From Streptomyces sp. NBC_01268 (GTDB lineage: Bacteria; Actinomycetota; Actinomycetes; Streptomycetales; Streptomycetaceae), in NCBI RefSeq assembly GCF_036240795.1, contig NZ_CP108454.1:5263501-5327500 (forward strand): a stretch of 64,000 bases of DNA, written 5' to 3'. Positions 60,554 to 64,000 of the stretch are shown here, piece after piece. The translations under genes were made by a program, and so were the position numbers. The notes beneath the pieces were generated by a model, which worked only from the letters and a program-made list of their open reading frames with translations, did not search any database and was not told the origin of the DNA. The number at the start of each line of letters is the position of its first letter. Positions within the stretch are counted from its first letter, which is position 1.

Positions 60554-61623
<1,070 letters not shown>

Positions 61624-61642
<19 letters not shown>

Positions 61643-61696
61643 GCGGATGAAATAACACCACGTCGCTGACGTGGCGAACATGCAGGTCAGAAGGGG
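61624..61696 (+). repeat. ychF 3'-end duplication, copy A
   Basis: This 73-bp segment covers the last ychF codons and downstream DNA. It matches copy B at 62453-62525 at both ends (GTTCCGYTTCAACGT; TGCAGGTCAGAAGGGG) with identical total length and a diverged middle. Confidence 0.8.
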
Positions 61697-61722
61697 TCGG
61701 ACTCTGTCGAGTCCGACCCCTT
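61691..61722 (+). terminator. 13-bp hairpin after ychF
   Basis: AAGGGGTCGGACT (61691-61703) pairs perfectly with AGTCCGACCCCTT (61710-61722) around CTGTCG. Its left edge overlaps the end of duplication copy A. Confidence 0.82.
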
Positions 61723-61728
61723 CGCCGT

Positions 61729-61753
61729 CACCGTGCTGGATGGGTGCTGGATA
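61729..61753. repeat. 25-bp direct repeat, left copy (right copy 62381-62405)
   Basis: A perfect 25-bp match built from GTGCTGGATG units flanks the toxin-antitoxin pair. A further degenerate GTGCTGGAT run lies at 62356-62375. Confidence 0.88.
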
Positions 61754-61776
61754 TTCTGACGTGGGGTCAGCGGCAG

Positions 61777-62040
61777 TCAGGTCTCGTTAACGGTGGACCG
61801 GTGTCCGACATGAACGACCCAGACCACCAGCTCTCCGTTGTCGAGGGTGTAGACGACGCGGTAGTCGCTGACGCGCAGGCGGCGTCGCTCGGGCTGGGAC
61901 ACGAGTGCGGTGGTGTTGAAGCCGAGAGGGTCGGTCTCCAGCTCGGTCAGCTTGGCCAGGATGCGCAGCGCCATGTCACGAGGGATCTTCCGAAGCTCGG
62001 CCTGGGCCTCAGGTCGGAAGACGGTTCGGTACTCACTCAC
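61777..62040 (-). CDS. relE: RelE/ParE-family mRNA interferase toxin
   Basis: The 87-residue protein starts with GTG and overlaps the antitoxin gene by 8 bp. It shows the RelE core: FRPEAQAELRKIPRDMALRILAKL, then RLRVSDYRVVYTLDNGELVVWVVHVGHR with the conserved Arg/Tyr/His-type C-terminal residues. Such toxins cut mRNA at the ribosome. It looks intact. Confidence 0.9.
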   Translation of the reverse strand: MSEYRTVFRPEAQAELRKIPRDMALRILAKLTELETDPLGFNTTALVSQPERRRLRVSDYRVVYTLDNGELVVWVVHVGHRSTVNET

Positions 62041-62302
62041 CTCGCGCCAACGTCTCCCGCATGATGTCCTCGATCGGGATGCCGGGCGCAGGGTTGGCCA
62101 TGCGCTCGTCGATGATCCGGTTGATCTCGCGCTCTTCCCACTCCTGGTACTTGCGCAGCACCTCGATGGAGACGACGGCGGCGACTTCCTTGCCCCGGCG
62201 CGTGATGATCGTGGGTACGTCGTCGCGGTCCGCACGCTCCACGACTTCCGCCAGGTGGGCGCGCACGTCCCGAATGGACTCTATGGGCAGCGGCTGCGTC
62301 AT
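62033..62302 (-). CDS. Phd/YefM-family antitoxin
   Basis: The 89-residue protein has the Phd/YefM N-terminus IRDVRAHLAEVVERADRDDVPTIITRRGKEVAAVVS (in parts), which binds DNA and represses its own promoter. The acidic, flexible C-terminus (EWEEREINRIIDERM) neutralises RelE. It is first in the operon. Its promoter should lie in the A/T-richer DNA just above 62302. Confidence 0.92.
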   Translation of the reverse strand: MTQPLPIESIRDVRAHLAEVVERADRDDVPTIITRRGKEVAAVVSIEVLRKYQEWEEREINRIIDERMANPAPGIPIEDIMRETLARGE

Positions 62303-62452
62303 GCGCTCAAGCGTACCGAGTGTGCCATGTGTACACAACTGTGTCCGGCCGTGTGGTGCTGGATGTGCTGGATGGGCGCGCACCGTGCTGGATGGGTGCT
62401 GGATAGCCACTCTCAGAACCGTGTTTTCGCAGGTCGGAGCTCTGCGTTGAAC

Positions 62453-62525
62453 GTTCCGCTTCAACGTGTAGTCGTGTCGTTACTGCACGCTAGCTACGTT
62501 CGACAAACGTGCAGGTCAGAAGGGG
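62453..62525 (+). repeat. ychF 3'-end duplication, copy B
   Basis: The copy reads in-frame TTC CGC TTC AAC GTG TAG, that is FRFNV-stop, the end of YchF with different codons, and ends with TGCAGGTCAGAAGGGG like copy A. It abuts the truncated Uma2 gene. Confidence 0.78.
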
Positions 62526-62749
62526 GTTGGATACTTGCGGAGTCTTACTGTGCGATCGCGATGGGCGGACTCAGGGGAGACGACCTCGATGACGAGCCGG
62601 ACGTCCTCCGGTGCGAACCAGGTACGGTCGCCGTCGAAATCGGCCGTCGTCACCAGCAGGTCCGGTTCGGGACGGTTGCGCGGGTCGAGGTCCTCCGCGA
62701 ACCAGCCTTCCGCGCGCGGCGGGCGCATCCAGTCGGGCTGTGCGGTCAT
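62516..62749 (-). pseudogene. Uma2-family (DUF820) endonuclease remnant
   Basis: This 77-codon remnant starts like an intact Uma2 protein (PRAEGWFAEDLD). It then jumps directly to NRPEPDLLVTT, missing roughly 50 residues of the usual N-terminal half. It keeps the nuclease motif EVVSPESAHRDRT but ends at LRKY followed by PTPF, where duplication copy B begins. The C-terminal 80 or so residues are missing. It is non-functional. Confidence 0.8.
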
Positions 62750-62824: not shown

Positions 62825-63454
62825 CTACGTGCGGGTCCATCCGTTGGCGAACTCGCAGTGGAGGTCCGCCCAGCGACGCTGTTCGGCGGGGGTGTGGCTG
62901 GAGTGGCCGAGGCGTCCCACGCCCTTGACCCACTCGTCCCAGAGGCCGTCGGGCTCCGTGAAGCGGTCGGCGTGGCCGGTACCGAGGAGGGCGTCGAGCC
63001 GGAGGAGGGCGCCCAGGGCGGCGGGCTGGTCGTAGTGGAGGTCGGTGCGGGGGAGGTAGTGGTCGAGGTAGGCGGTGAGGATCTCGGCGTCGGCGTGGGT
63101 GCCGAAGCGGGCCAGGGCGAAGCAGTAGGCGCCGCCGGAGTAGCAGACCTCGCTGGCCAGGAGCAGGTCGCCGATGCGCGCTCGGAACCGTTCGCGGCGG
63201 TCGACACCGATCAGCCAGCCGGCGGTGAGGCGTGAGCGCCATTCGTACCCGAGGAGGGCTTCCAGTTCCCCGTCGTCGATCGCGGCGGCGTCGGCGAGCA
63301 GATGCCGGGTAAAGCGAGTGGTGTGCCACCACCGGGGGCCCAGGAACCGCCCGCCATTCAGTACGAGATAGCGCGGGAGGCCGCCGTACATCCTCGTCAC
63401 GTAGCTCTCGACCACATGGCCGTAGCCGACTTCCTCGGGGTGTGGGGACGGCAT
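62825..63454 (-). CDS. DUF6000-like protein of unknown function
   Basis: The 209-residue soluble protein has YVTRMYGGLPRYLVLNGGRFL near the N-terminus and SGGAYCFALARFGTHADAEIL plus LRLDALLGTGHADRF later. This is the pattern recalled for DUF6000 proteins, thought of as possible immunity-type proteins in streptomycetes. There is no toxin partner in view. It lies between the Uma2 remnant and the rRNA promoter region. Confidence 0.72.
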   Translation of the reverse strand: MPSPHPEEVGYGHVVESYVTRMYGGLPRYLVLNGGRFLGPRWWHTTRFTRHLLADAAAIDDGELEALLGYEWRSRLTAGWLIGVDRRERFRARIGDLLLASEVCYSGGAYCFALARFGTHADAEILTAYLDHYLPRTDLHYDQPAALGALLRLDALLGTGHADRFTEPDGLWDEWVKGVGRLGHSSHTPAEQRRWADLHCEFANGWTRT

Positions 63455-63840: not shown

Positions 63841-64000
63841 GTGCGAGTCGCTCGATTGGCTTCGGGGGCAAGGAATCCGCTAAAGTCTCACTCGTCGGAA
63901 CGGCCCAACAGCCGCGAAGGCAAAACCCGCTGACTGGGATTCAGGCCCGAAAGGATCTGATAGAGTCGGAACCGCCGGAAGGGCCCGGAGCGAAAGCGAA
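63841..64000 (+). promoter_or_regulatory. rRNA operon promoter/leader region (rrn P elements), continues beyond window
   Basis: GATTGGCTTC and CCGCTAAAGTCTCACT (-10-like TAAAGT at 63881) are followed by CGCTGACTGGGATTCAGGCC, CGAAAGGATCTGATAGAGTC (second -10-like TAGAGT at 63961) and GAAGGGCCCGGAGCGAAAG. These elements are characteristic of Streptomyces rrn promoters and the 16S leader. 16S rRNA should start a few hundred bases past the edge. Confidence 0.75.

Follow-up and report, generated by a model that had tools for sequence, protein, structure and literature searches.

A toxin–antitoxin pair between integrase-type attachment ends at the 3' end of ychF: a probable integrase-less cassette of tandem arrays in Streptomyces and relatives

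In the window, the whole 64-kb stretch of DNA analysed here, the 3' end of ychF is followed by a toxin–antitoxin (TA) pair enclosed by two attachment-like ends, and then by a truncated Uma2 gene and a DUF6000 gene. The locus consists of the following features:

60554..61642, + strand: ychF (Obg-like GTPase/ATPase, 362 aa; Pfam YchF-GTPase_C 131 bits, MMR_HSR1 78 bits), with its 3' end as the attachment site
61624..61638, + strand: attL core, which is the core of copy A, GTTCCGTTTCAACGT
61639..61728, + strand: left end of the TA cassette, with the stop codon, the TGCAGGTCAGAAGGGG block (61681-61696) and a perfect 15-bp hairpin (61690-61723)
61733..61753, + strand: left arm-type pair GTGCTGGATGGGTGCTGGATA, common to other cassettes
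61777..62040, − strand: toxin of the ParE/RelE superfamily, 87 aa, GTG start (ParE_toxin PF05016, 47.9 bits, cut-off 23)
62033..62302, − strand: antitoxin of the Phd/YefM family, 89 aa (PhdYeFM_antitox PF02604, 50.0 bits, cut-off 29.8; TIGR01552, 44.5 bits)
62356..62373, + strand: right arm-type pair 1, GTGCTGGATGTGCTGGAT, aligned with the right ends of integrase elements
62385..62405, + strand: right arm-type pair 2, GTGCTGGATGGGTGCTGGATA, 48 bp from its second repeat to the core
62453..62467, + strand: attR core, which is the core of copy B, GTTCCGCTTCAACGT
62468..62531, + strand: left end of the probable next cassette, B type, with similar ends in loci L128, L136, L073 and L126
62516..62749, − strand: Uma2 remnant of that next cassette, with an internal deletion and the C-terminus lost (PF05685, 33 bits)
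62825..63454, − strand: DUF6000 gene (PF19463, 255 bits)

The toxin and antitoxin genes are adjacent, overlap by 8 nt and are both located on the minus strand, so that the operon is directed towards ychF. The first-pass annotation of this DNA had described an intact RelE/YefM pair as the only cargo, with no integrase, and both points hold: the domain scores identify the two proteins, only two genes are called between the cores, and neither of the integrase families introduced below matches there. On the toxin, TIGR02385 scores 24.1 bits, under its cut-off of 27.9. By adjacency, overlap and domains the pair belongs to the Phd/YefM–ParE/RelE type II family, with toxicity and neutralisation as predicted activities. 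Further downstream, the two pieces of the Uma2 remnant match separated parts of the gene in relatives (the Uma2 protein of L136 has 193 aa), and DUF6000 genes near the ychF site also occur in L076, L078, L083, L086 and L197, that of L086 inside one core-delimited unit. The window contains no tRNA, and a tRNA target was rejected. On the 3' side of the array, an rRNA-leader-like sequence (63957-63971) precedes 23S and 5S rRNA genes, and the place of the 16S gene reads N in the fetched stretch of this genome; no such leader-like sequence is present in the fetched stretches of the other 80 loci.

Copy A (61624-61696) and copy B (62453-62525, 829 bp downstream of A) each span 73 nt, match at their ends and encode FRFNV-stop, as originally noted. 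Their identity of 41/73 is unevenly distributed over a 5' part (14/15), a middle (8/38) and a 3' part (19/20), and the two cores differ at one position. Within the 64-kb window the 20-nt 3' block is seen only at the two copies, even with up to three mismatches (0.00 expected), and the 15-nt core only at the two copies with no mismatch. With up to three mismatches the core has four matches in the window, a number that 9/100 shuffles also reach; taken by itself, the core therefore provides little evidence inside the window. Calling A and B diverged versions of a single 73-bp repeat is not the best description: resemblance to a true attachment core is confined to the first 15 bp, and the divergence of the middles comes from the two different left ends that come next. 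Copy A is the 3' end of ychF. The earlier proposal that A came with the insert and restored the gene stands in that FRFNV-stop is kept, but we infer that A did not arrive whole, the coding part of ychF being the host's and the insert supplying the last bases, the stop codon, the hairpin and the arm sites.

The key to the locus is an inner repeat that the first-pass annotation did not mention. Between copies A and B, a repeat finder returns a perfect direct repeat of 25 bp (61729-61753 and 62381-62405), and paired GTGCTGGAT repeats are present at both ends of the A-B unit. These paired repeats are read, by analogy, as arm-type integrase sites. Cores A and B, with the arm pairs on their inner side, retain attL and attR in the geometry seen in integrase elements. 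A short direct repeat, here the 15-bp core, at the 3' end of a restored gene is the arrangement of an autonomous integrative element; the internal integrase gene of an autonomous tyrosine-integrase element is not found between A and B.

The site was followed in a set of 392 genomes, 390 of which have a ychF match, as well as in a smaller sample of 91 genomes, each with a match (91/91). The ychF end and about 10 kb beyond it (less at contig ends) were fetched for 79 of the 91, eight of these stretches being lengthened because an integrase was known further downstream. The remaining 12 comprise the window genome, G068, which was fetched separately, and ten genomes of at least 150 contigs each that were left out; the 79 stretches, G068 and the window make up 81 loci. 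In the 857 kb downstream of ychF, there are 25 extra GTTCCGCTTCAACGT cores with at most one mismatch, all on the plus strand and none on the minus; they fall in 23/81 loci, six of which (L077, L100, L107, L118, L131, G068) have a core only more than 10 kb away, in lengthened or selected stretches. At up to two mismatches the counts are 35 plus versus 4 minus, in 29 of the 81 loci; L146 has no core at this threshold. A pattern search places a short repeat pair ahead of 20/25 cores, at a distance that varies by repeat type: 64 nt for GTGCTGACT (4/4), 50-52 nt for GTGCTGGAT (7/7), 42 nt for GTGCTGGGAT (2/3; 48 in L080) and 103 nt for AGTCCGCAG (5/6; 102 in one). Left ends with a perfect stem of at least 8 number 23/81, versus 12/231 random stretches. 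The stretch from the ychF stop to TGCAGGTCAGAAG (left ends of L072-L150 and L183-L204) takes at least two forms, GCGGATGAAATAACACC.. and TAGTCG..GTTACTGCA.., which swap between otherwise similar TA cassettes.

Copy B had been taken for the displaced native end of ychF, an assignment that the comparison of ychF ends does not support. The best matches to the 65 nt after core B are the ychF ends of L126, L128, L119, L073 and L136 (scores 78.5-87.5; shuffled maximum 38.5). In all five the TA pair is not directly behind ychF; it is located further downstream in L126, L128 and L136, while a Uma2 gene lies directly 3' of ychF in L073, L128 and L136, and Uma2 also follows B in the window. In G071, a TA cassette is followed by a longer Uma2 gene at the same place as the window remnant. 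The hairpin typical of other left ends is not kept in the B-type left end (62468..62531). Five ychF ends running into B-like sequence, together with the Uma2 context, suggest that this ychF most likely ended in B before the TA cassette came. B is probably the start of a decayed Uma2 cassette, and a native gene end is disfavoured by the Uma2 gene after B, by G071 and by the ychF ends themselves. The expectation that cassette-free strains end like B is matched by these five loci but not by the sample at large, since of 80 ychF ends 31 are nearer A, 10 nearer B and 39 resemble neither. Similarly, the predicted relation of B to ychF ends in relatives is seen in the five, but B-like left ends also stand directly on TA cassettes (L183, L186, L198, L199, L204).

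Larger elements with integrases, proposed at the outset as something to look for at the same site, are found there. In G331, the end of a tyrosine recombinase gene is positioned directly beside such a core. Relatives of this integrase (family 1) are present in 47/392 genomes at E<=1e-40, and the core (at most one mismatch) lies 87-142 bp past the integrase stop in 13 of the 30 loci examined out of 58 places listed; four of the 30 lack the catalytic motif by pattern and one ends at a contig end. G041, G043, G080 and G072 combine a left end at ychF with an integrase-core end of the same arm type, the G072 integrase being frameshifted. Pfam confirms the Phage_integrase domain in the integrases at the site; also encoded by the G043 element are a Type ISP restriction enzyme and an excisionase-like protein of the HTH_17 type. 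Members of a second integrase family, about 28% identical to family 1 over the aligned part, are located directly behind the core and point back to ychF in L205, L088 and L103. As genes of both families stand beside one core, two integrase families appear to use it.

No close integrase of either family is found in the window genome: the best family-1 matches are 37% identical over part of the protein (with an in-frame stop) and 30%, and the family-2 matches, at the same two places, reach 37% over part and 28%. It is thus possible that the cassette is now stranded in this genome. Family 1 has no match in plasmids at E<=1e-30, and phage records hold only a 34% relative. Two IMG/VR contigs classed as viral (L211 and L213, 64 and 96 kb) combine a family-1 integrase with a right end of the same kind, and the autonomous partners may include prophages. 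In the IMG/VR contigs L209 and L212, an integrase element lies directly in front of a window-type TA cassette, so a helper would be next door. No intermediate with the TA pair inside an intact integrase element is seen; the cassette ends are common to integrase elements. One candidate, in G080, was rejected, as the second integrase of L151 ends right before the TA pair in what looks like a deletion joining two units.

Right ends were located with an exact, gene-blind DNA pattern (arm pair, 35-60 nt, core) on genome contigs, which returns 25 of them in named genomes, two of these in one Kitasatospora genome. The gap, for which the pattern allows 26 values, is 48 nt in 20/25, 47 in one and 37 in four. 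Of the 25 right ends, 15 are preceded by a window-type TA pair, six by a family-1 integrase, one by a VapC-like gene and three by no query protein; for 10 of the 15 with the TA pair, ychF too is present on the upstream side. The six integrases lie within 2 kb and end 107-755 bp from the core end, and the 48-nt spacer of the window is identical to those of the six integrase ends at 27-36/48 positions, against a shuffled maximum of 21-24. Measured from core to core, the TA unit spans 813-857 bp in 10/15 TA right ends and 829 bp in the window. The nearest upstream core is 2940 bp away in L188 and 1819 bp in L190, and none is found within the fetched stretch of L191, L201 and L206.

Cassettes follow one another in arrays. 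In G266, ychF is succeeded by a PIN/VapC unit, a second VapC-like unit (its VapC-like gene has no Pfam match) and a window-type TA unit, each closed by core-like sequence. With cores at up to two mismatches and units below 4.2 kb, the window included, 24 core-delimited units are obtained; by our own reading, and as a raw count, 16/24 contain a TA module. The window-type TA pair is found in seven units (L111, L113, L120, L125, L126, L136 and the window), a PIN-type toxin with a partner in seven (L094, L121, L137, L139, L142, L145, L149; the partner tested has no Pfam match) and YefM/YoeB in two (L080, L111). The remaining units, eight in number, contain Uma2, DUF6000, further large genes, fragments of integrases or short unassigned ORFs. 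The TA unit occupies differing positions in the arrays. In L136 and L126 the TA pair shares one core-to-core unit with other genes, and some genomes, L083 for example, retain the left end and the TA pair with no recognised right core; decay or fusion of units is therefore common.

DNA of the window TA pair is present in 87/392 genomes, the window genome counted. Among the matches listed, 52 of these genomes have the TA and ychF coordinates on one contig, and in 46 of the 52 the TA pair follows ychF on its strand at a downstream distance of up to 35 kb; this sample leans to ychF ends resembling that of the window, because the ychF coordinates come from the best matches listed. Ten of 12 further TA stretches, including the six exceptions, have no core or arms, which shows that members of the TA family can exist independently of these ends. 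For 35 loci, with duplicate genomes removed (L113 = L184, L175 = L125 by identity), the TA tree and the ychF tree reject each other (delta lnL 409 and 741; KH, SH and AU tests) and share 0/32 splits, those with support of at least 95 being few (5 and 3). Pairwise third-position identities of TA and ychF show a weak correlation of 0.29 (595 pairs). In Marinactinospora thermotolerans, of the Nocardiopsidaceae, a TA unit is located at ychF; compared with the window, the C-terminal part of YchF is 72% and the TA pair 92% identical in amino acids, and the left end is closely similar. Judged by sequence, the tree conflict and the Nocardiopsidaceae copy indicate that the TA cassette moves horizontally.

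The first interpretation of the locus, site-specific integration at the 3' end of ychF, is upheld by the core, the arms and the integrase elements at the same site. Because TA units and integrase elements have right ends in common and the core lies near integrase stops, the A-B unit is very probably an integrase-less element of the CIME kind, in which integrase-type ends surround a TA pair that would be mobilised in trans as one unit of tandem arrays. The cassettes have complete docking ends but encode no enzyme to act on them, and larger elements that share the site appear to lend them one. Excision or insertion of the cassette would be carried out in trans by an integrase of the GTGCTGGAT arm type, encoded in the same array or in a passing element. 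The left end would supply the ychF stop codon and the hairpin at 61690-61723, a possible ychF terminator. Addiction to the TA pair would discourage loss of the cassette and so stabilise it, and repeated insertion at the same core would build the tandem arrays.

A decayed stump of a larger integrative element, a classical CIME that lost its integrase by deletion and is now immobile and vertically inherited, would likewise account for a genome with no cognate integrase and for the truncated Uma2 gene adjoining the cassette, and it fits the CIME definition of PMC5704250. This origin is less likely: the TA-only unit recurs at 813-857 bp in 10/15 TA right ends, TA ends outnumber integrase ends 15 to 6 among the 25, the TA tree conflicts with the ychF tree, and the unit changes its array position and is present in another family. 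Chromosomal integron arrays also consist of small tandem cassettes rich in TA modules, but an integron-like system proper, with attC-type cassettes and an integron integrase, is highly improbable here. The recombinase at the site reaches 42.7 bits against a cut-off of 265 for the integron-integrase model, far below it, and the ends are a gene-derived core with distant arm repeats; no integron integrase is found beside the array. A match of A and B at only 41/73 positions might suggest that the end of ychF was duplicated locally or is resembled by chance, and that the TA pair enclosed is unrelated. The chance of this is negligible, as the pattern recurs across the genus, is oriented and spaced, and is common to integrase elements. 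Broader than the integrase-less, trans-mobilised element favoured here is the proposal that the 3' end of ychF is a standing docking platform in Streptomyces and relatives, where sub-kilobase TA cassettes travel between species as units of their own and are stacked in trans by integrases of two or more unrelated families, resulting in an integron-like reservoir of TA and defence genes in which no integron is involved; we lean neither for nor against it.

Tycheposons and MITE-like non-autonomous elements are cargo units that depend on recombinases encoded elsewhere, and the present cassette differs from them in that it has the att ends of an integrase element, is located at a protein gene and occurs in Actinomycetota. 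TA pairs often reside in small islands without a recognisable mobile gene, and the ends of this cassette illustrate a route by which recombinases of other elements could move such a pair. Among known systems, the CIME with its tandem accretion comes closest; PMC5704250 defines it as keeping attL and attR, being without integrase and transfer genes and standing in tandem with other elements, with accretion related to ICESt1. The cassette resembles it in having attL and attR, in the absence of integration and transfer genes and in its tandem position; it differs in its size of less than 1 kb, in recurring as a TA-only unit in many species and another family, in the arm repeats at both ends and in outnumbering its integrase-bearing relatives in one scan. 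In Streptomyces, several elements (AICEs/IMEs) are accreted at one tRNA-Arg site, according to PMC9513070. Accretion at one site is shared, and the G043 element at ychF carries an HTH_17 protein and an integrase, whereas the target here is the 3' end of ychF and the cassettes are without integrase or transfer genes. PAISt of Streptomyces turgidiscabies likewise involves a tyrosine integrase at a gene 3' end, that of bacA, with modular excision via an internal att copy (PMC4057263), but is one large island with its own integrase at another site. Functional TA pairs are reported for Streptomyces in PMC3303803 and PMC4989188, and one published account places a pneumococcal satellite prophage upstream of ychF. 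In the literature searched, with most subscription papers and preprints outside its scope, no report was found of the ychF 3' end as an attachment site or of TA-only integrase cassettes. The ychF site offers a testable model of satellite-like integrase use and of the spread and persistence of TA cassettes, and it is perhaps a natural integration site common to many Streptomyces, with the gene end kept and a hairpin supplied.

Two further arrangements are observed at a larger scale. In L056 (G296), L057 (G248) and L050 (G157), a family-1 integrase on the ychF strand, about 54-165 kb further downstream, is followed by the ychF core and a new cassette left end, representing very long arrays or large elements. 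In L032/L033 (G068:C1 7402761-7432646), a 30-kb stretch lies between ychF and a TA cassette, delimited by cores bearing GTGCTGGGAT arms; neither integrase family matches in it. Besides very long ORFs it contains genes for a protein kinase and for an SNF2 helicase that PADLOC DrmD-type models match, and the stretch is possibly a defence island at the ychF site.
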